A DNA stretch of 64,000 bases from Spirochaetota bacterium (GTDB lineage Bacteria > Spirochaetota > Brachyspiria > Brachyspirales > JACRPF01). The position numbers and the translations under genes were made by a program. Position 1 is the stretch's first letter. Each line of letters starts with the position of its first letter. The notes under the pieces were generated by a model, which did no database searches, was not told the origin of the DNA, and was given only the letters and a program-made list of their open reading frames with translations. This document shows, one piece after another, positions 20,651 through 30,434 of the stretch. The DNA lies in contig JACRPF010000005.1 of NCBI GenBank assembly GCA_016214035.1, positions 434,001 through 498,000 of the forward strand, given 5' to 3'.

Positions 20651-20670
20651 CACGCCTTTTAATAGGCGTG
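20651..20670 (+). terminator. Possible terminator hairpin after GH35
   Basis: CACGCC pairs with GGCGTG across an AT-rich eight-base loop 12 bases after the GH35 stop. There is no T run after it, so it may be only an attenuating hairpin. Confidence 0.4.
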
Positions 20671-20759
20671 GTATTCGCGCGCTTCGTTCCGGGAAACACG
20701 CAAAGGCTTTCCCTTTCGTAGGGTTAGCGAAGAATATATCATGGGCACGCGGGTAGACG

Positions 20760-21102
20760 GCTTTCTCGACCAAGTGGCGGACGGTTTTCTCGACTGAGCA
20801 GATGTCTTTCTCGACCGAGCGGATGACTTTCTCGACCGAGCAGAAGGCTTTCTCGACCGAGCGGAAGACTTTCTTGACCGAGCGGAAGACTTTCTTGACC
20901 GAGCGGAAGACTTTCTTGACCGAGCGGAAGACTTTCTTGACCTCGATCGAGCGGATGTCTTTCTCGATCGAGCGGATGTCTTTCTCGATCGAGCGGAAGA
21001 CTTTCTCGACCGAGCGGAAGACTTTCTCGACCGAGCGGAAGACTTTCTCGACCGAGCGGAAGACTTTCTCGACCGAGCGGACGGTTTTCTCAACAAAGAA
21101 AA
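20760..21102 (+). repeat. 21-bp tandem array, interrupted by an IS
   Basis: Sixteen successive units of the type TTCTCGACCGAGCGGAAGAC are visible, starting at 20763, 20787, 20808 and so on to 21087. Spacing is 21 bp, with one 24-bp and one 27-bp step. All steps are multiples of three, so a seven-residue repeat stays in frame. Each unit holds the near-palindrome CTCGACCGAG or the perfect CTCGATCGAG. One to two further degenerate units continue after the IS element (22501-22535). All frames lack stops inside the array, so coding direction is not certain. Nothing else is seen in 20671-20759. Confidence 0.9.
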
Positions 21103-22492
21103 GGGGGTGTGGGAAAGATTGTGTAAATACTCCTAAAACATAAAATGCAATAAGGAGTAGAAGATGTCAAAAGTCAAACAACTGAAACCAAAGGACAAGA
21201 TCATTAATGACCTTCTTGATCAACTATTGGATGAGTATGACGGCACGAACACAGAAATGATAACTGGAAAAGATGGGCTTATGCTTGCCATCAAAAAGCG
21301 GCTCATTGAACGGGCGATGGACAAGGAAATGGATCATCATCTGGGGTATGAAAAATACTCCAAGGATGGTATCAACTCCGGGAATTCGCGCAACGGAGAT
21401 TACCCGAAGACGGTACTCACAGAGCAAGGCAATATCGATATTGAGGTCCCCCGTGATCGCAACGGTGTCTTCCAGCCGCGTATCGTCGCGAAGGGTCAAC
21501 GGCGTTGGACGGGGTTCGATAAAAAGATTATCTCGATGTATTCACGGGGGATGACAACCCGAGATATTCAGGGTCATATTAAAGAGATGTATGGCGTTGA
21601 TGTTGACCCGACGCTTATCTCCGCGGTTACCGATGGCGTCATGGATGATGTTCATGAATGGCAAAACCGTTTGCTTGATGCCGTGTATCCGATCATGTAT
21701 CTTGATGCGCTGCGGGTAAAAATCCGCGATGAAGGACACGTTTGCAACAAAGCGGCACATTTGATTATTGGAATCAACATGAGCGGAAAGAAGGAATTAT
21801 TAGGTATTTGGCTTGAACAGAACGAAGGTTCTAAGTTTTGGTTAAAAGTGATTACTGACTTAAAAAACCGTGGTGTTCAAGATGTATTCATTGCCTGCGT
21901 TGACGGATTGTCGGGATTTCCCGAAGCAGTGCACGCCGTATACCCCAATACCGAGGTGCAGCGGTGTATTGTTCATATGGTCAGGAGTTCTCTGCGATAT
22001 GTGTCACGCAAATACCGCAAATCGGTCGCGGATGACCTGAGACAGATATATACTGCCACAAGTGAAACGACTGCGTCAACAGCACTTACTTCATTCACAA
22101 AGAAATGGGAACGACAGTATCCGACGATCGGCTTGCTGTGGAAAAACAATTGGAACAGTATATCGCCATTCTTTGCATATCCTCCAGATATTCGCAAAGC
22201 GATCTATACAACAAATGCAATCGAGTCATTGAACATGAGCGTCAGGAAGGTGATAAAAAACCGAGCATCATTTCCAAACGACGATGCGGCGCTTAAGATG
22301 TTGTACCTATCGATCAAACGTGCGTCTGAAAAGTGGACAAGGCCGATCCGTGATTGGGGAAGTGCGCTTAATCAATTTGCTATATTGTTCGGTCCAAGAG
22401 TGCCGATATATAATGGGACCACAATTGATGTACAAACTATTTCGAATGTGAAATAGAACGCGGGGCATTTACACAATCAATCCCACACCCCC
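21103..22492 (+). mobile_element. Complete IS256-family insertion sequence, 1390 bp
   Basis: Terminal inverted repeats begin GGGGGTGTGGGA at 21103 and, on the other strand, at 22492. They agree at 24 of the first 26 positions and both include GATTGTGTAAAT. The element is flanked by the 8-bp direct duplication AAAGAAAA at 21095-21102 and 22493-22500. One intact transposase gene lies inside. The target is the 21-bp array. Intact ends, intact gene and identical target copies suggest a recent insertion. Confidence 0.95.
21164..22456 (+). CDS. IS256-family transposase
   Basis: 430 residues, full length. AAGGAG precedes the ATG at 21164. DDE catalytic residues of the Mutator-like family are visible: Asp in PIMYLDALRVKI, Asp in VFIACVDGLSGFPEAV, Glu in YTTNAIESLNMSVRK. 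The N-terminal DNA-binding region is lysine-rich. HMVRSSLRYVSRK between the second Asp and the Glu is also typical. No frameshift or truncation, so the element is probably active or recently so. Confidence 0.97.
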   Translation: MSKVKQLKPKDKIINDLLDQLLDEYDGTNTEMITGKDGLMLAIKKRLIERAMDKEMDHHLGYEKYSKDGINSGNSRNGDYPKTVLTEQGNIDIEVPRDRNGVFQPRIVAKGQRRWTGFDKKIISMYSRGMTTRDIQGHIKEMYGVDVDPTLISAVTDGVMDDVHEWQNRLLDAVYPIMYLDALRVKIRDEGHVCNKAAHLIIGINMSGKKELLGIWLEQNEGSKFWLKVITDLKNRGVQDVFIACVDGLSGFPEAVHAVYPNTEVQRCIVHMVRSSLRYVSRKYRKSVADDLRQIYTATSETTASTALTSFTKKWERQYPTIGLLWKNNWNSISPFFAYPPDIRKAIYTTNAIESLNMSVRKVIKNRASFPNDDAALKMLYLSIKRASEKWTRPIRDWGSALNQFAILFGPRVPIYNGTTIDVQTISNVK

Positions 22493-22725
22493 AAAGAAAA
22501 TGGTTTTCTTGACAAAGAAAATGGTTTTCCCGGAGATTGGATAAAGATAAGACAAAAAAAAGGCCTCCGCAATCCCCAAATGATGAAAAGGCTGTATATA
22601 AAGGGTGATACGCGCATGGCGTTGCTGAGCCGAAGGCGAATAGCGCGTAGTAAATTTCACAAAACTGTATTGCCGAATATGGCGTTTTAGCATACACTTA
22701 TACCGGTGAGTCAGGAGCGCCCTTG

Positions 22726-25653
22726 ATGACAAACGAAGAAAGGATTGCCGCATTACGCACACTCGTTGCCACATTCCGTGACAATATCGTTGAGTATAAA
22801 GAAAAGGGTTATAAAGAAGCTAAAGTACGTCAGGATTTCATCAATAAATTCTTCAAACTGCTCGATTGGGACATCGACAACGACGGCGGGAAAAGCGAAC
22901 AGTACCGTGATGTCATAATAGAAGATTCTATCGAGATAGCCGGTGCGCAGAAAGCGCCGGACTACTGCTTCAAGATAGGCAAGGAACGCAAATTCTTCGT
23001 TGAGGCGAAAAAGCCCTCGGTATCCGTTAAGGACGAACACGACCCCGCGTATCAGGTGCGGCGGTACGGATATACGGCGAATCTGCCGCTGTCCATTCTC
23101 ACGGACTTCGAGGAATTCGCGGTGTATGATACGCGCATCAAACCGGCAAAGATCGATAAGTCCGGCGTGGGGCGGATATTCTACTGCACATACGAAGACT
23201 ACGAAAAGCAATTGGATTTCATCTATTCTACGTTCTCCAAAACGGCGATAGAAAAAGGAAGTTTCGACAAGTATGTCCATGAGGCCAAATCCAAGCGCGG
23301 AAGTGAAAGCGTAGACAAAGGGCTGCTCTCGCTCATCGAAGGGTTCCGCGTTGATCTCGCTAAGAACATCGCCAAGCTCAACAAGAAACTCGATATCTAT
23401 CAGCTCAATCATGCCGTTACCAAGATAATCGACCGGATAATATTCCTCCGCATCGCCGAGGATAAGGATGTTGAGAAGTACGGGATATTGTTGAATGCGG
23501 TGACGGGCACGGAGAAGAAGGGAACAAGGGGCTTAAGCCCCTTGTCCTCCAAGATAAAAGCAATCTTCAAAGCCGCGAACGAGAAATATAACAGCGAACT
23601 GTTCAAGGCGCATGAGACAATAGACACGGCGGTCATCGACGACGACGTGCTCAAGGACATCATCACCGCGCTGTATTATCCGGATTGTCCGTATGAGCTT
23701 TCGGTGCTGCCGCTGGAAATACTCGGGAATATCTATGAACAGTTCCTCGGCAAAACCATACGGCTCACTGAATCGCATCTGGCGAAGATCGAAGAAAAGC
23801 CGGAAGTGCGGAAAGCGGGCGGGGTGTATTATACGCCGCAGTATATTGTGGAATATATCGTGAAGAATACGGTGGGCTCACTCACCCTCTCCCCGGCCCT
23901 CTCCCTCTCTCAAGGAACGAGAGAGGGAGAGGGAGCGAACACAATGGGGCAGGTGACGAGTAAAACACCAGAGGAAGTATCGAAGCTCCGGATATGCGAT
24001 CCGGCGTGCGGGAGCGGGTCGTTCCTCATCGGCGCGTATGATTATCTGCTGGAATGGCATTACAAGTATTATGCGGATGAAAAGAACATCGAGCAGGCGA
24101 TCAAAGAAAAGCGCATCTATAAATACAGCAAAGGGTACAGGCTCACCATTGAGGAGAAGAAACGGATACTCATCAACAATATCTACGGCGTGGATATAGA
24201 CCCGCAGGCGGTTGAGGTTACGAAGCTTTCGCTGGTGCTGAAGATACTCGAGGGCGAGAACGCGGAAAGCGCGGGGACGCTCCTTACGTACAGTTCCGTG
24301 AAGATGCTGCCGGACTTGTCGAACAATATCAAGTGCGGGAATTCGCTCATCGGCAGTGATTTTTATAAAGACAAGCAGATGGATATGTTCGACACTGCAG
24401 AGATGCGGAAGGTGAATGCGTTCGATTGGGAGAAGGAGTTTCCCGCTGTTTTTGCGGCGGGTGGATTTGATGTGGTGATTGGGAATCCGCCATATGGAGG
24501 ATTACTTAGCGATTCTGAGAAAGAATATCTATGTAAGTCGTATTCATCGTATGAGTATCAGTTGAATAGTTTTTGTTTTTTTATGGAAAAAGGAGTGCGA
24601 TATTTACGAACTGATGGTTTATTGTCATTTATTGTTCCTGCGGTATTTTTAAATCAGCATTACTTTATGAATATTCGAAATATAATCTTGAAGAAAACAA
24701 CAGTAAAGCATTTAGTCCTTCTAAATTATAAGGTCTTTGAGCAGGCAGATACAGGGGATACCTGTATCTTTATTGTTGAAAATTCGAACATTCAGGCCGA
24801 TTTAAAATATAGCACAATACGAGATCGTGAATTGTTCTTATGTCCTGAAAAAGGGACGACCAATCAGACAATATTTTTAAATAACAAGAGATTTGAGTTC
24901 ATTTTTTCAAAACATGATAAGTTGATAAATAAGGTATTTGATCGTTCTGTAAAATTAGGAGATATTGCATTTTGTACTATGGGTATAAAACCATATCAAA
25001 CCGGAAAGGGAAAACCAAAACAAACAAAAACAATAGTTGATGAAAGGCCATACGATAGCGAAAAAAAGAAAAATGAGCTATATAAACAATATCTAATTGG
25101 CAAAGATATCGACAGATATGTAATTGCTCCAAAAGAGAAAAGGTTCATAAAATATGGTGAATGGCTCGCCGAGCCAAGGCCAGATGCCCCATTTGAACGT
25201 GAAAAGATTATCCTTCGGCAAACGTCAGATGTAATTCGTGCAACTATTGATAAAATGAAATATTATAACTTGAATAACATTTACAATATTGAATCAAAAG
25301 ATATGAAATATGATAATCGGTATTTACTTGGTATTTTGAACTCAAAACTTATGATATTTATATACCAACACATAGTTCCAGAAAAAGGACGCGTATTTGC
25401 TGAAATAAAAAAAATTAATCTTGAAAAATTGCCAATTATTTTTATAGATTCTCAGTCAGCTGAACAAAATCAATTAACACTGCTAGTTGATCAAATGCTT
25501 ACAGTTCAAAATGAATATTTGATGACAAAAGATAGTGATAAGGTCATATTGAGGCAGAAAATTGATGTAGTTGACACACAGATTGATGCGCTGGTATATC
25601 AGCTATACGGGCTGACGGAGGATGAGGTAATGGTGGTGGAGGGGAAGGCGTGA
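22726..25653 (+). CDS. Type IIG (Eco57I-like) restriction-modification enzyme
   Basis: 975 residues from the ATG at 22726 (GGAG eight bases upstream; a TTG one codon earlier is less likely). Order: PD-(D/E)xK nuclease near residues 79-95 (KAPDYCF then FVEAKKPS), helical linker, N6-adenine methyltransferase with motif I DPACGSGSFL at 425 and motif IV NPPYGG near 587, then a target-recognition domain. It would methylate and cut a specific DNA site in one polypeptide. Two palindromic elements sit in frame, giving residues about 265-277 (KKGTRGLSPLSS) and 385-408 (TLSPALSLSQGTREGEGANT). Codons 590-940 are strikingly AT-rich against the rest, suggesting a swapped recognition domain. Its stop overlaps the next start as GTGA. 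Confidence 0.93.
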   Translation: MTNEERIAALRTLVATFRDNIVEYKEKGYKEAKVRQDFINKFFKLLDWDIDNDGGKSEQYRDVIIEDSIEIAGAQKAPDYCFKIGKERKFFVEAKKPSVSVKDEHDPAYQVRRYGYTANLPLSILTDFEEFAVYDTRIKPAKIDKSGVGRIFYCTYEDYEKQLDFIYSTFSKTAIEKGSFDKYVHEAKSKRGSESVDKGLLSLIEGFRVDLAKNIAKLNKKLDIYQLNHAVTKIIDRIIFLRIAEDKDVEKYGILLNAVTGTEKKGTRGLSPLSSKIKAIFKAANEKYNSELFKAHETIDTAVIDDDVLKDIITALYYPDCPYELSVLPLEILGNIYEQFLGKTIRLTESHLAKIEEKPEVRKAGGVYYTPQYIVEYIVKNTVGSLTLSPALSLSQGTREGEGANTMGQVTSKTPEEVSKLRICDPACGSGSFLIGAYDYLLEWHYKYYADEKNIEQAIKEKRIYKYSKGYRLTIEEKKRILINNIYGVDIDPQAVEVTKLSLVLKILEGENAESAGTLLTYSSVKMLPDLSNNIKCGNSLIGSDFYKDKQMDMFDTAEMRKVNAFDWEKEFPAVFAAGGFDVVIGNPPYGGLLSDSEKEYLCKSYSSYEYQLNSFCFFMEKGVRYLRTDGLLSFIVPAVFLNQHYFMNIRNIILKKTTVKHLVLLNYKVFEQADTGDTCIFIVENSNIQADLKYSTIRDRELFLCPEKGTTNQTIFLNNKRFEFIFSKHDKLINKVFDRSVKLGDIAFCTMGIKPYQTGKGKPKQTKTIVDERPYDSEKKKNELYKQYLIGKDIDRYVIAPKEKRFIKYGEWLAEPRPDAPFEREKIILRQTSDVIRATIDKMKYYNLNNIYNIESKDMKYDNRYLLGILNSKLMIFIYQHIVPEKGRVFAEIKKINLEKLPIIFIDSQSAEQNQLTLLVDQMLTVQNEYLMTKDSDKVILRQKIDVVDTQIDALVYQLYGLTEDEVMVVEGKA
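23524..23545. repeat. REP palindrome inside the RM gene, family 1
   Basis: A perfect 22-bp palindrome with core AAGGGGCTTAAGCCCCTT. The same core (with AA or TC centre) occurs at 26555-26574 and 26633-26652 beside the tyrosine transposase gene. Here it is read through in frame as TRGLSPLS. Confidence 0.88.
23897..23933. repeat. Palindromic element inside the RM gene, family 2
   Basis: CCCTCTCCCTCTCTC and GAGAGAGGGAGAGGG form a perfect 15-bp stem with a seven-base loop. It lies between the nuclease/helical part and methyltransferase motif I and adds about 20-24 residues (SLTLSPALSLSQGTREGEG) where relatives have a short linker. Frame is kept. Confidence 0.85.
25539..25653 (+). repeat. RM 3'-tail repeat, copy 1
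   Basis: The last 115 bases of the RM gene, encoding LRQKIDVVDTQIDALVYQLY and GLTEDEVMVVEGKA. Copies of this stretch end the two following ORFs (26468-26525 and 27225-27363). Its end, GGAGGGGAAGGCGTGA, also supplies the ribosome-binding site and GTGA stop/start overlap for the next ORF. It is GC-rich after an AT-rich recognition domain. Confidence 0.85.
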
Positions 25654-26525
25654 GCGAAAGTGTTGTGTATAAAAATGCATTAATATTTTATTTTGATTTA
25701 TTAGGCACAAAAAATAGAATATCTGATAACTGCGCTAACATAAATTACGATATTTTTAAAACATTCAAAGATATGACGACTTCAAATATAAAAATCAAAT
25801 ATACTTTCAGCTTATCCGATACTGTTGTATATGTAGTTGATGAAATAAAGCCAAACACCCTTTATTATATTTATTATTTTATGACAACACTGCAGTATGA
25901 ATTATTTCAAAGGCATGGTGTTTTTATTAGAGGATCAATTGTTCATGGGAAAATATTTTATTCGTCCGATGAGAATCTTATTTTTGGACCAGCATTAATT
26001 AAAGCGCATGCTATCGCGGAAAAACACGGCATGCCGCCACTTATATACGTAGATAAATCAGTGTTCGATGTTTTCAATAATGACCCAAAAGCTTTAATCT
26101 CAGACAGTAATTATATTGGAACGCCAGAAAAAGATTATTATGATTCGACATGGGATTCAATAAAGACAAGTTTTTTCAGCACATATACTGATATAAAAGG
26201 CATTGAACATACATATTGCGATTATCTTTTTAACGGATTGGGGTTCGCATCAAGTAAGATGGAAACATATAAGGAAATAAATGATGCATATCCGAAATTA
26301 TTGCAGGAGCATAAATCTGTTATTATGAGATGTCTAGCGTATTATAACGATGACAGTATATTGTCAAAATATTATTGGTTAGCAAGGTATCATAATAGAA
26401 CGATTCTCCGGCACATGATAAATAGTTCGTTTCTTATAAACAATAATAGTATTAAATCGCTGCTTATCGAGGGCTATTATGGACTGACGGAGGAGGAGAT
26501 AAAGGTGGTGGAGAGGAAGGGGTAG
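25650..26525 (+). CDS. Class III nucleotide cyclase-like protein (PycC-type), with RM tail
   Basis: 291 residues starting at the GTG that overlaps the RM stop. It matches the bacterial class III cyclase pattern found in Pycsar-type anti-phage genes. First metal Asp is D16 (IFYFDLLGTK), second D57 (TFSLSDTVVYVV); then FIRGSIVHGKI (R94-G95) and NLIFGPALIKAHAIAEK followed by PLIYVD. Such cyclases make cCMP or cUMP on infection to trigger an effector. No neighbouring PycTM or PycTIR protein is evident. The body is very AT-rich. The last 15 residues (YGLTEEEIKVVERKG) are instead homologous to the RM C-terminus, at DNA level too, so the natural C-terminus has been replaced or extended. Cyclase assignment is by motif; nucleotide specificity is unknown. 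Confidence 0.68.
   Translation: MSESVVYKNALIFYFDLLGTKNRISDNCANINYDIFKTFKDMTTSNIKIKYTFSLSDTVVYVVDEIKPNTLYYIYYFMTTLQYELFQRHGVFIRGSIVHGKIFYSSDENLIFGPALIKAHAIAEKHGMPPLIYVDKSVFDVFNNDPKALISDSNYIGTPEKDYYDSTWDSIKTSFFSTYTDIKGIEHTYCDYLFNGLGFASSKMETYKEINDAYPKLLQEHKSVIMRCLAYYNDDSILSKYYWLARYHNRTILRHMINSSFLINNNSIKSLLIEGYYGLTEEEIKVVERKG
26468..26525 (+). repeat. RM 3'-tail repeat, copy 2 (short)
   Basis: Bases around GGACTGACGGAGGAGGAGAT to the stop closely match copy 1 and copy 3. It encodes YYGLTEEEIKVVERKG. After it, an ATG at 26527 opens only an 11-codon frame that ends in the following REP palindrome. Confidence 0.82.
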
Positions 26526-26554
26526 CATGGCGGGAGAATACGGGGTGGTTCTGG

Positions 26555-26574
26555 CAAGGGGCTAAAGCCCCTTG
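26555..26574. repeat. REP palindrome, family 1, upstream of RAYT
   Basis: CAAGGGGCT-AA-AGCCCCTTG, 9-bp arms, between the cyclase-like ORF and the tyrosine transposase gene. Confidence 0.88.
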
Positions 26575-26632
26575 TCCTATGGAATGGCGGAAAAGGACAA
26601 GCATATGACAAAAGACACAACGATTATTAGAA

Positions 26633-26652
26633 CAAGGGGCTTCAGCCCCTTG
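26633..26652. repeat. REP palindrome, family 1, second copy upstream of RAYT
   Basis: CAAGGGGCT-TC-AGCCCCTTG, 78 bases after the previous copy and in the same orientation. The pair lies 100-200 bases before the transposase start, the usual setting of REP sequences beside their RAYT gene. Confidence 0.88.
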
Positions 26653-26754
26653 CCAGAAATCTCGACTTGTTTCTTGCCCGCCGAGATGTTCAACCCCCCT
26701 TGCCAAGTAACTCGTCTGCTTCCATGCCAGACATCTCGCGGAGATTCTGATTCT

Positions 26755-27363
26755 ATGGAATTATGGCATATCACATTAGTGACACATAACTCACGCGTTT
26801 CTCAGCGGATGATTGAGTACAACGTGGAACGAGGAGAGCCGCTCAGACTTGACAGCGCGGCGGAACTGATAATCACGAGCGAAATAGCAAAGATCATCGG
26901 AAAACATGGATATCAAATCTATGCATACAATATTTGCGTTGATCATGTACACATACTGCTGAAATGTGCCGCTGATGCCGTGCCTGATGTGGTTAAGACC
27001 ATAAAAGCGTTATCATCGATGCAATACAAGAAAAGTTTGGGAATACAGGATGATGAGAAGTTCCATCTCTGGGCGCAGAAATTTAATCGCTGGCTCATCG
27101 AGTCGGATGAACAGTTGTATAACACAATGGCGTATATTATCAGCAACAGACGGAAACATGGTTTGCCGGAGATACAGGAACTCGACAATATCATATCGGG
27201 AATGGTTGCGGCGGGAGAATGTGGCAAGGAGGTATTGAAGCAGAAGATAGACGCGATTGACGTGCAGAATGATGCGCTGGTGTATGAGCCGTATGGGCTG
27301 ACGGAGGAGGACGATTCGGCTACGCTCAGCGCAGGAATAAAGGTGGTGGAGGGGAAGGCGTGA
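26755..27363 (+). CDS. REP-associated tyrosine transposase (RAYT, Y1/IS200-like)
   Basis: 202 residues from the ATG at 26755; the upstream frame extension translates REP sequence and is rejected. HUH motif H64-V-H66 (YNICVDHVHILLK) and catalytic Tyr candidate Y127 in MAYIISNRRKHGLPE are both present, so it should nick single-stranded REP hairpins. RAYTs are single-copy, domesticated relatives of IS200/IS605 that spread REP sequences. Two REP palindromes lie directly upstream. The C-terminal 45 residues (LKQKIDAIDVQNDALVYEPY onwards) are not RAYT sequence. They are a copy of the RM C-terminus, with a 27-base in-frame insertion. GGAG lies 12 bases before the ATG, a weak site. Confidence 0.82.
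   Translation: MELWHITLVTHNSRVSQRMIEYNVERGEPLRLDSAAELIITSEIAKIIGKHGYQIYAYNICVDHVHILLKCAADAVPDVVKTIKALSSMQYKKSLGIQDDEKFHLWAQKFNRWLIESDEQLYNTMAYIISNRRKHGLPEIQELDNIISGMVAAGECGKEVLKQKIDAIDVQNDALVYEPYGLTEEDDSATLSAGIKVVEGKA
27225..27363 (+). repeat. RM 3'-tail repeat, copy 3 (with insertion)
   Basis: Matches copy 1 from AAGGAGGTATTGAAGCAGAA to GGAGGGGAAGGCGTGA. A 27-base segment containing GGCTACGCTCAGCGCAGG interrupts it in frame between GAGGAG and ATAAAGG. The final GTGA again provides a coupled start for the next short frame. Confidence 0.84.
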
Positions 27364-27504: not shown

Positions 27505-28464
27505 ATGCGTCACATTGTTCGAATTAAGTCATCTGAGTATTCTATGAAAAATTTAATAAAAGGCATAGATTCGATTCGGACTATGATCAATAAGCCGAGA
27601 CGACAAAATATAATATTACAAAATAGAGTGACTTGGAATACATTATGTTCTTCCCTAGATACTATAGAAGACACCAGTCACGCAATTGGAGAATACATAT
27701 CGTTGTCCAATAATAATTATTCAACTGGTTTTTCGTATGTGATAGTATATGGTGTTATGCAGGCAATGTTTTTACAGCAAGATGCAGTAATACACATTGC
27801 ATCTTCATTAGGAAATAATTTAGCGCTTGATGATGAGCTAAAGAAAATTCGCGAGATTAGAAATAGTAGTACCGGGCATCCTGTAAGAGATAGAGGAGAC
27901 AATAAATCATTCAACTATATCCAACACTGTGGAATGACTCATCTAAAATTTCGCCTTGTAAGTTATTGCCCAAATAAATCGGATCCAACGTTTTCTGATA
28001 TTGACATCTTAAAACTTATTGATAAACAAAAAGAAATAATATCGAAATATATTAATGATTTAATTCTATTTCTAGAAAAGGAAGAAAAAACACACAAAGA
28101 GGAATTTATGAATACAAAGCTGAAGGCGTATTTTAGTCATTTTAATTATAATATAGGCAAAGTATATGAATGCATAAGTAATATTGATTATAAACAATTG
28201 AGCTTAATTAATCTTAATGAGATTGTATCGAATATAGAAAAGGCCAAGAGCGAGTTAAATAAACGATCGTTGTTGGGCAATGTTCCAGGAATTGAATATA
28301 ATCTAGAAGAAATTAATTACCCGATAAATAAACTACAATCATATTTTAATGATGAGATCAAGTTGCATGACAAAGAAATAAAGATATTAATATATTTCAT
28401 ACATAAAAAAACCGAAGAGCTAATTAGAATGTTTGAAGAAATTGATAATGACTATTGTGAATAG
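27505..28464 (+). CDS. Uncharacterised protein with a HEPN-type R-x5-H motif
   Basis: 319 residues, AT-rich, mostly helical, no membrane segment. YGVMQAMFLQQDAVIHIAS followed by KIREIRNSSTGHP contains R119-N-S-S-T-G-H125, the R-x4/6-H signature with a polar residue after the Arg that marks HEPN ribonucleases of toxin and anti-phage systems. The second half is coiled-coil-like. Start at 27505 has no clear ribosome-binding site; the ATG at 27544 is an alternative. It lies between the transposase and the RhuM gene in a defence-like island and could be an effector of the neighbouring cyclase, but that is speculation. No family name can be given from sequence alone. Confidence 0.6.
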   Translation: MRHIVRIKSSEYSMKNLIKGIDSIRTMINKPRRQNIILQNRVTWNTLCSSLDTIEDTSHAIGEYISLSNNNYSTGFSYVIVYGVMQAMFLQQDAVIHIASSLGNNLALDDELKKIREIRNSSTGHPVRDRGDNKSFNYIQHCGMTHLKFRLVSYCPNKSDPTFSDIDILKLIDKQKEIISKYINDLILFLEKEEKTHKEEFMNTKLKAYFSHFNYNIGKVYECISNIDYKQLSLINLNEIVSNIEKAKSELNKRSLLGNVPGIEYNLEEINYPINKLQSYFNDEIKLHDKEIKILIYFIHKKTEELIRMFEEIDNDYCE

Positions 28465-28488: not shown

Positions 28489-29517
28489 ATGCTAAGTAAT
28501 AGAAAAATCCCCGATGACCAAATTACCATATACCAAAACGCGGATGGGAACATCAATATAGAAGTCCTCTATGCAAATGAAAACATCTGGCTTCCGCAGA
28601 AACGCATGGCGGAACTATTTGAATGCAGCACCGATAATATATCGCTTCACCTGAAAAACATATACGATGAAGGCGAACTTGACCGGAAGGCAACTGCCGA
28701 GGATTTCTCGGTAGTTCAAAAAGAGGGCAGCCGGGAAGTGACGCGCACCGTTACATGCTATTCCCTTGAAGCTATCATCGCCGTGGGTTATCGGGTAAAC
28801 TCCGCGCGGGGCACGCAATTTCGTCAATGGGCTATAACAATACTGCAAAAATATATACACAAGGGATTCGCCATCGACGGTGACCGATTCAAATACGGTT
28901 CGCGGTTCAGTACGCGATATTTTGACGATTTGCTGGAAGAAATACGCGAAATTCGCGCGAGTGAACGGATGGCGTATCAGAAGATAACAGATATCTACGC
29001 GACATCGATTGATTATTCACCCAAGGCGGCGGATACGAAGCAGTTTTTTGCCGTTGTACAGAACAAGCTTCACTTTGCCATAACCGGAAAAACCGCCGCG
29101 GAGATCATTGCGGACCGCGTTGACAGTGAAAAGCCGCACATGGGGCTGTCCTCGTGGCGAAAAGGCCCTTCGGGAAAAATACTTCCGGGCGATGTAACGG
29201 TGGCAAAGAATTATCTAGATAAACAAGAGCTCGATCACTTGAACCGAATTGTATCCATGTACCTTGATTACGCGGAATTGCAGGCGGTTCGCAATAAGCC
29301 GATGTACATGAAGGATTGGGTGGAAAAACTGAATGCGTTTCTGAAATTCAGCGAATATGAGATTCTTACTAACGCGGGAGCAATAAGTCACGAGATTGCA
29401 CTTGCGCTTGCCATGAAAGAATATGATAAGTATCGTATTGCTCAGGATAAGGAATATCTATCGGATTTTGACAGGGAAATCAAACGTATCACAGAGAAAG
29501 ATGTTGATAAAAAATAA
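28489..29517 (+). CDS. RhuM-family protein
   Basis: 342 residues. Recognised by the RhuM pattern: an N-terminal domain (WLPQKRMAELFECSTDNISL, then SREVTRTVTCYSLEAIIAVG and GTQFRQWAITILQKYIHKGF) and a C-terminal helical domain with NKLHFAITGKTAAEIIADR and SHEIALALAMKEYDKYR. GAGGTG lies seven bases before the ATG. RhuM proteins were named from a Salmonella pathogenicity island. They are common in accessory and defence-type regions across bacteria, and their biochemical role is unknown. GC is higher than in the gene before it, so it probably arrived separately. Confidence 0.85.
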   Translation: MLSNRKIPDDQITIYQNADGNINIEVLYANENIWLPQKRMAELFECSTDNISLHLKNIYDEGELDRKATAEDFSVVQKEGSREVTRTVTCYSLEAIIAVGYRVNSARGTQFRQWAITILQKYIHKGFAIDGDRFKYGSRFSTRYFDDLLEEIREIRASERMAYQKITDIYATSIDYSPKAADTKQFFAVVQNKLHFAITGKTAAEIIADRVDSEKPHMGLSSWRKGPSGKILPGDVTVAKNYLDKQELDHLNRIVSMYLDYAELQAVRNKPMYMKDWVEKLNAFLKFSEYEILTNAGAISHEIALALAMKEYDKYRIAQDKEYLSDFDREIKRITEKDVDKK

Positions 29518-29870
29518 TGGGATAACCCACGTTACCTCGATACGAACACACGAAATACATGCAGGTATCCCGACGAATCCGTTGATTACCAAGACTACAT
29601 TGACATTGTGTTGCTTTCTGCTTTTATCATGCAACATTCCAATTCCACTCGGCGATAACATCTCTGGAAAAACAGAACATGTAAAACACTGAATGTCCGT
29701 GTACAGGGAAGGATTGGGGGAAAGTGAGACCCGTGAATTGTCACGGCATAGCCTGATTGGACAGAGGGGCATGCCCCGCTGTCCAATCAGGCTATGCCGA
29801 ATGACACAGTACCGCTTGTGATATTACCTGAATCAGATATTGGACGCGCTGTCGCTTGCGGGATGCGCCC
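29518..29870. other. Gene-free stretch with a large palindrome
   Basis: No frame here has coding character. 29518-29743 shows nothing I recognise; 29744-29799 is a near-perfect inverted repeat (separate entry); the rest is spacer before the GxxExxY gene. Confidence 0.6.
29744..29799. repeat. 56-bp near-perfect palindrome
   Basis: CGGCATAGCCTGATTGGACA pairs with TGTCCAATCAGGCTATGCCG around a GGGGCATGCCCC centre. It follows RhuM and precedes GxxExxY (convergent), so it could serve as a two-way terminator. The GGGGCA/TGCCCC core also occurs in the hairpin at 31911-31968. Confidence 0.85.
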
Positions 29871-30266
29871 CTACACCCCGTTCGCCACCCGCACAATTCC
29901 TTCCTTCAATAACGCGGTATTGAAATTCAACAACAGCCCCAGCTTCAGTCCGGTGGTTTTGAGATACGTCAGTAACTGTTTCTTATGCACCGGCTGAATA
30001 TTCTCCACCGACTTGACCTCAATGATGACCTTTTTCTCAACGATGATGTCCGCCCGAAACCCGAATTCAAATTCGATACCATCATAAACAACCGGGATAA
30101 CTGTTTCCGATTCAACCGCAAGACCCGCTTTGCGTAATTCATGCACCAGCACTTTATGATACACCGACTCGAGCAGCCCCGGCCCGAGTTTTGAATGAAT
30201 TTCAATAGCCTTTGAAACAATAATTCCTGAAATTCGGTTTTCAGTGATGTTGAGATCGTACTGCAT
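29871..30266 (-). CDS. GxxExxY-family PD-(D/E)xK-like protein
   Basis: 131 residues from the ATG at 30266, which has GGAGG at five to six bases; an ATG four codons earlier lacks one. The name-giving motif is in KLGPGLLESVYHKVL. FRADIIVEKKVIIEVKSVE has the D...E-x-K arrangement of PD-(D/E)xK nucleases. The function of the family is unknown. It is widespread near mobile DNA and in REP-rich regions. A truncated inverted copy of its 5' end lies at 30387-30412. Confidence 0.88.
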   Translation of the reverse strand: MQYDLNITENRISGIIVSKAIEIHSKLGPGLLESVYHKVLVHELRKAGLAVESETVIPVVYDGIEFEFGFRADIIVEKKVIIEVKSVENIQPVHKKQLLTYLKTTGLKLGLLLNFNTALLKEGIVRVANGV

Positions 30267-30412
30267 GAATGCCTCCATCGTTTTTTTATTAACCCAGAAT
30301 GCCGAACGAAGCAGGAGTCAAGGGTCGCCGTATCCGGCGACTCGCGCAGCCCTTGACTCCTGCGAGTGAGGCATTATCACGTGCAGAAAACGATGGAGGT
30401 ATTCATGCAGTA
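30258..30412. repeat. Inverted duplication of the GxxExxY 5' end
   Basis: The 26-base stretch at 30258-30283 (start region of GxxExxY, including GGAGG and ATG) reappears in opposite orientation at 30387-30412 with one mismatch. The right copy breaks off after MQY. A palindrome at 30298-30375 lies between them. Confidence 0.82.
30298..30375. repeat. Large palindromic element
   Basis: GCAGGAGTCAAGGG pairs with CCCTTGACTCCTGC; inside, GTCGCCG/CGGCGAC form a second stem, and outside AATGCC pairs with GGCATT. REP-like, single copy in this window. Confidence 0.82.
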
Positions 30413-30434
30413 CACGTATATCTCTGCGCTCCCT

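Follow-up and report, generated by a model that had tools for sequence, protein, structure and literature searches.

How does a domesticated transposase that is accompanied by REP palindromes come to end in the C-terminus of the restriction-modification (RM) enzyme encoded upstream of it? The question is raised by a locus in a member of the phylum Spirochaetota whose genome was assembled to 5.2 Mb in 22 contigs (98 % complete, 4.65 % estimated contamination). The window, i.e. the whole stretch of DNA that was analysed, comprises 64,000 nt (contig JACRPF010000005.1, 434,001-498,000), and all coordinates given below are window positions. A preliminary description of this DNA had proposed a local unit of REPs and a REP-associated tyrosine transposase (RAYT), and had taken the C-terminus of the latter for a foreign piece gained from the RM gene.

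Organization of the locus

The gene order is a type IIG RM gene, a 291-aa ORF, an inverted pair of REPs, the RAYT gene, a 319-aa ORF and a RhuM-family gene, with all of the coding regions on the forward strand. The RM gene (22723..25653, 976 aa) encodes, by Pfam, an HSDR_N nuclease, an Eco57I/N6 methylase, a TaqI_C specificity domain and a conserved tail; nuclease, methylase and specificity domains (HSDR_N, Eco57I/N6_Mtase, TaqI_C) are thus united in a single protein, as is characteristic of type IIG enzymes, and PADLOC assigns the gene to REase_MTase_IIG (E=4e-172). The GTG start of the 291-aa ORF (25650..26525) overlaps the RM stop. Its product shows weak similarity to uncharacterized proteins from elsewhere in the phylum, which do not carry the tail; it yielded no Pfam, NCBIfam or PADLOC family and no PDB match, and its single-sequence structure model is poor (pLDDT 44). 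Relatives of this ORF have FxDxLGxK, SD and RGxIxxG...FGPA motifs in common, which may recall class III cyclase-like proteins. The 319-aa ORF (27505..28464), of unknown function, lies 3' of the last tail copy and is followed by the RhuM-family gene (28489..29517; PF13310, E=1.6e-107), which corresponds to the PADLOC phage-defence candidate PDC-S05 (E=2e-145).

A RAYT lineage beside the described subclasses

As now read, the RAYT coding sequence occupies 26755..27363 on the forward strand and specifies 202 aa, made up of a core, MELWHITLVTHNSR...YIISNRRKHGLPEIQELDNIISGM, and a tail. The natural start is the ATG at 26755, the longer frame from 26572 running through a REP. That the protein is a Y1 tyrosine transposase with HUH and Tyr motifs, as first described, is borne out by PF01797 (E=1.3e-9, residues intact), and the catalytic DHVH (H64, H66) and Y127 are invariant among relatives. 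A profile search (hmmsearch) with the RAYT family among solved structures retrieved the TnpA proteins of ISDra2 and IS608, and the predicted fold of the core matches, by Foldseek, both of these as well as the RAYT-REP structure 4er8. Against NF047646 (REP_Tyr_transpos), the protein scores E=3e-13 and 49.8 bits, under the curated cut-off of 80; it is related to, yet outside, the NCBIfam REP-associated tyrosine transposase equivalog. Its motifs (DHVH, W[AST], YIxNNRxKHG) also fall outside every subclass tabulated by Quentin 2018 (PMC6006769). The lineage, found at about a dozen sites among 393 Spirochaetota genomes, is thus, by the measure of that table, a related branch that has not been described.

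In its DHVH and Tyr motifs and its fold match to TnpA and 4er8, the Y1 HUH protein resembles RAYT/TnpA-REP (REPtron) systems, as it also does in being a single-copy gene flanked by palindromes that are dispersed through the genome; the in-frame insertion of a REP within a gene has its counterpart in subclass 2.4 (PMC6006769). Unlike known RAYTs, the window RAYT has an open frame that continues into the RM tail. The setting also differs from that of IS200/IS605 insertion sequences, which occur as multiple near-identical copies, often with tnpB, whereas the source genome has three divergent Y1 genes and no tnpB-like gene was seen among the ORFs neighbouring the RAYT gene. The window RAYT alone as query gave no match in genome contigs, and the RAYT alignment gave none in viral contigs.

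REP palindromes and their association with RAYT genes

The REP is the palindrome AAGGGGCT-NN-AGCCCCTT, found in the window at 23526, 26556 and 26634 (0.15 expected with 3 mismatches). The two copies noted at the outset beside the RAYT gene are present as an inverted pair, its left arm (REP copy 2, 26549..26579) on the reverse strand and its right arm (REP copy 3, 26628..26658) on the forward strand, the arms being 94 % complementary. REP copy 1 (23526..23543) indeed lies inside the RM gene, in frame, where it contributes the peptide GTRGLSPLSS to a loop that is missing or differently filled in aligned relatives. A second palindromic repeat, the inverted repeat LTLSPALSLSQGTREGEG at 23897..23933, is also in frame in the RM gene, and the alignment places other inserts in the same loop in two relatives (L108 and G188).

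Counted genome-wide, as the preliminary description had suggested, the palindrome is over-represented: there are 8 exact copies, three of them in the window, and 11 copies of the looser form CARKGGG-N6-CCCMYTG, where about 0 would be expected and the reversed control gave 0. Across the phylum, a matching REP stands within 250 bp of nine of the ten RAYT genes of the lineage. The RAYT-adjacent hairpins share one design, with variants CAAGGGGCT, CAAGGGGTT, CAAGGGGTA and CAGTGGG, and the variant is mostly common to RAYTs that are related in the tree (window and G064, G188 and G194, G057 and G178), G032 being the exception. The looser pattern occurs 2-35 times in the 8 genomes with a stand-alone RAYT against an average of 0.5 across the remaining 385, the reversed control being near zero throughout the 393 genomes. 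Since the pattern had been derived from RAYT-adjacent copies, RAYT-flanking REPs were removed and the test repeated; the means were then 11.4 in RAYT genomes and 0.5 in those without (p=1e-9, uncorrected for genome relatedness). The palindrome therefore exceeds chance and is not equally frequent in genomes that have no RAYT, and proximity, variant and genome association all agree with the local REP/RAYT unit originally proposed. Five or more REPs were also found in eight genomes in which no RAYT was detected, which argues that REPs can persist after the RAYT gene is gone or become uncoupled from it. In G001, G055 and G131 there are 12-32 REPs of the same design and no detected RAYT of the lineage, i.e. 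either orphan REPs or missing contigs.

These REPs differ from known ones in being symmetric CAAGGGG/CAGTGGG palindromes of low copy number (2-35) with no obvious GT[AG]G foot; inspection of the flanks by eye made no such tetranucleotide evident. Classes 2.6 and 3 likewise have no GT[AG]G (PMC6006769). The lineage would add to the described subclasses a REP/RAYT system with several REP variants that broadly track RAYT clades, and with few REPs per genome.

Copies of a restriction-gene end

The RM-like tail of the RAYT was regarded at first as an unusual gain of 45 residues by that protein. Among RAYTs, the tail is confined to that of the window, its relatives stopping where the tail begins. 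However, the 291-aa ORF carries the tail too; the RM 3' end is therefore present three times at the locus, and no further copy was found in the source genome. Copy 1 (25530..25653) is the native RM 3' end (...IDALVYQLYGLTEDEVMVVEGKA and stop). Copy 2 (26478..26525) makes up the final 16-18 codons of the 291-aa ORF (YYGLTEEEIKVVERKG and stop), homologues of which end differently, and is 85 % identical to the RM 3' end over 46 nt (26478-26523). Copy 3 (27216..27363) supplies the 45-50 residues at the C-terminus of the RAYT frame and is 75 % identical over 96 nt. All three are on the forward strand. The alignment of copy 3 is interrupted by a short dispersed repeat (GATTCGGCTACGCTCAGCGC, 27313..27332) that is in frame (DDSATLSA) and recurs in related form at other places in the genome. 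The tail ends in a conserved IVEG/VVEG, which (e.g. at 25636-25653) is written GTGGAGGGG, a ribosome-binding-site-like sequence just 5' of the starts of many downstream genes.

In the structure model of the RAYT, built from five sequences, the tail has a pLDDT under 50 and the core one of about 80. Such a lack of confident structure, in a model from only five sequences, fits a tail that is probably a passenger on the transposase.

Probable insertion of the REP-RAYT unit into a tail copy

The REP-RAYT unit is bracketed by an 11-bp direct repeat, GGCGGGAGAAT, the left copy of which (26529..26539) lies just 3' of the stop of the 291-aa ORF and the right copy (27210..27220) at the junction of RAYT core and tail. 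Sharing of 11 nt or more was seen in 0.0009 (0.09 %) of random pairs of stretches, a frequency to be read in the light of the repeat having been noticed post hoc. When the flanks are joined, they give an intact start-plus-tail mini-ORF, ATG GCG GGA GAA TGT GGC AAG ..., which reads MAGECGKEVLKQK...VVEGKA and stop (joined sequence ATGGCGGGAGAATGTGGCAAGG). In another genome (G064), two RAYT paralogues are 90 % identical up to exactly the stop codon, where the similarity ends; the natural unit thus ends there, close to the junction in the window. Because of the direct repeat and the intact mini-ORF, it is probable that the REP pair and its cognate RAYT are a small mobile unit that was inserted into copy 3 of the repeated end of the RM gene. 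The tail that had been taken for a foreign acquisition by the RAYT is therefore real, but the direction is more likely the reverse, the unit having entered a tail copy that already existed.

The following course of events can be envisaged. Genes would have been added beside the RM gene as its 3' end was duplicated, either by recombination at that end or by insertion with long target duplication, and tail copy 3 would then have been a mini-ORF directly behind the 291-aa ORF, like the mini-ORFs in other genomes. The REP-RAYT unit may have entered at the start codon of this mini-ORF, and the RAYT's own stop would have been lost or never included, such that the frame now reads through the tail. 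The putative activity of the RAYT, nicking and joining of single-stranded REP hairpins, would have dispersed a low number of REPs, among them the one in frame within the RM gene. Target duplications are not known from enzymes of the IS200/IS605 type, and the 11-bp repeat may be microhomology.

Several observations qualify this reconstruction, which is drawn from one genome, no empty site having been found among close relatives. Against an insertion, the REP pair is solely 5' of the window RAYT, whereas REPs lie on both sides in G188, G032 and G096. One contig of G064 begins at the REP, and the left boundary of the unit therefore could not be placed there. Moreover, the tails in the window are old (75 % nucleotide identity), which makes the order of events uncertain.

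Arrays of tails across the phylum

The tail as query matches 114 of the 393 genomes of the phylum, and about a dozen of these have several closely spaced copies. Near-identical copies of type IIG 3' ends, 75-196 bp in length, separate PIN, DUF3800, HEPN, SIR2 and Lamassu-like genes, and RES and NACHT genes are found in looser arrays. The array of G055 (locus L089, G055:C127, 3386-8205) has at least six copies (74-185 bp, mostly 87-100 % identical) interspersed with PIN, PIN, PIN, DUF3800 and DUF3800 genes, and the repeat extends about 47 nt beyond the stop codon. Each tail copy in this array is followed by a hairpin and CTTACGACCAGTAAAA; the hairpin was considered as a genome-wide REP and rejected, its sequence being confined to the array. 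The three copies of G057 share 93-97 % identity over about 190 bp; they set off a 304-aa and a DUF2326 gene and, after these, a HEPN gene. There are 2-3 copies in G339 and G275; in G339, copies flank a PDC-S42 gene, and copies also precede a SIR2 gene and follow it at a distance of some 2.3 kb. A search of plasmids with the tail gave only two weak archaeal matches. The downstream genes often begin at, or a few bases from, the tail stop, and the tail may act as a translational coupler.

In some genomes, longer pieces are repeated: the units of G018, G026, G009, G010 and G016 keep RM 3' halves of about 280-510 aa that end in the tail, and RES, ImmA/IrrE, Mrr and NACHT genes lie between or after the units in same-order relatives (G018, G026 and others). 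Tail-ending RM 3' halves alternate with other genes at loci L086, L087, L088, L097 and L098, where repeats of about 70 nt precede many of the units; RES, ImmA/IrrE, Mrr and NACHT genes were among those examined in L086 and L088.

A search of the literature for arrays of cassettes at RM gene ends returned only work on long target duplication. To judge from the passages of PMC1643837 and PMC3031569 that cite it (Nobusato 2000), insertion with long target duplication would, by analogy, be the nearest published process to array growth, since it also leaves RM-adjoining genes between long direct repeats. As portrayed in those passages, it is RM genes that are inserted; in the present arrays, the sequence that recurs, in as many as six copies, is the 3' end of the RM gene itself, and the inserts are other genes for defence or toxins. 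The arrays also recall integron cassette arrays, in which short recombination sites bound units of one or two genes and defence and toxin genes abound, a resemblance of layout only; unlike attC hairpins, the repeats are coding RM 3' ends.

Y1 domains within type IIG enzymes

A Y1 domain lies in frame inside the type IIG protein itself in G031 (ADurb.Bin133; loci L031/L101), G112 (GWF1_51_8; L034/L100) and a member of the Ignavibacteriales (L108), i.e. in two phyla, Spirochaetota and Ignavibacteriota. The site is the same in each case, between FDWxxxFPE(V/I) and GGFDxVIGNPPY, just before NPPY, and a decayed domain occupies the corresponding place in L035 (G104). The RM enzyme of the window has only three residues at this site, and that of G188 has a repeat-derived peptide. 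In the tree, three of the four (G031, G112 and L108) form a clade apart from the window RAYT, which argues that they are a second, independent link between Y1 and type IIG proteins and not the origin of the window RAYT. No published description of a Y1/type IIG fusion was found in the literature, and the occurrence of the domain at one fixed site in two phyla is testable.

Alternative explanations

Other accounts of the tail on the RAYT can be weighed against insertion into a tail copy. The RAYT core and tail might be the remnant of a type IIG enzyme that had a built-in Y1 domain and of which all else has been lost; this would be in keeping with the architecture just described, in which the domain immediately precedes NPPY in three enzymes and has decayed in a fourth (G104). 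The window RAYT groups, however, with stand-alone RAYTs (93/93 with G064), outside the clade of embedded domains, retains a free-standing N-terminus and an upstream REP pair, and has no methylase or TaqI_C sequence between core and tail; descent from an RM-embedded domain was rejected on the tree placement, and we consider the remnant very improbable. A functional fusion, in which selection keeps the RM tail as a means of docking the transposase on the RM enzyme or on DNA, would account for the open frame through the tail and for its still being recognizable at the protein level. Genes with the RM tail are, besides, present in 8 of the 11 genomes with the RAYT family versus 106 of the 382 others (p=0.003), a co-occurrence that may merely reflect genomes rich in mobile DNA. 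Yet a shorter piece of the same tail is on the 291-aa ORF, the RAYT copy is broken by DDSATLSA, every other RAYT lacks it and the model gives it no confident structure, all of which renders a selected function improbable. That the palindromes and the tail similarity are due to chance or to faulty assembly might be entertained in view of the 22 contigs and the estimated contamination, but this is exceedingly unlikely given the palindrome expectation of 0.15 per window, the empty reversed control and the recurrence of both RAYT-REP pairing and tail arrays in independent genomes.

A further alternative concerns where the tails came from and is compatible with insertion of the REP-RAYT unit as the best explanation for the RAYT. 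The tails might be the last remnants of silent cassettes for TaqI_C-type specificity switching, the intervening genes having come later. Like the silent TRD cassettes of phase-variable RM systems, the arrays repeat conserved RM segments 3' of an intact gene, and the units with RM 3' halves and other genes between them (G018, G026, G009, G010, G016) speak for such decay; specificity-domain sequence is present in the downstream units of G018 and G026. It is absent in the window, where there is tail only, and, unlike TRD cassettes, the repeats of G055, G057 and the window consist of the gene end only, with unrelated genes between. The extra copies in G055, G057, G339 and the window comprise just the last 75-196 nt of the RM gene, and in G055 they take in the nucleotides past the stop codon; duplication of the gene end fits these features better, and cassette decay is a possible but doubtful origin for the tails as a whole. 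Both processes may have operated, in different lineages.

Gene-end repetition in defence loci

The repetition of a restriction-gene end between defence genes offers a computable signature for finding uncharacterized defence genes, and is possibly a way in which defence islands grow. One might go further and suppose that defence or toxin cassettes of one gene each land repeatedly at the reiterated 3' end of type IIG RM genes, which would then form a gene-capture array with no obvious integrase, and that Y1 HUH enzymes of the RAYT lineage are mechanistically tied to the array, e.g. by cutting and copying single strands where the gene ends. Such enzymes lie within the array in the window and, in other genomes, in frame inside the RM protein; we regard this wider proposal as speculative and, on balance, unlikely.

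Other repeats in the window

A near-perfect, spacerless 28-nt inverted repeat (29744-29799) lies between the RhuM gene and a PDDEXK_3 gene (29871-30278), and a 27-nt inverted repeat (30258-30413) is formed by the start of the latter, which recurs in inverted orientation 102 nt upstream. At 20659-21096, tandem repeats with open frames on both strands (SARSRKS... / FSTERKT...) adjoin an IS256-type (Mutator) transposase gene (21164-22456).
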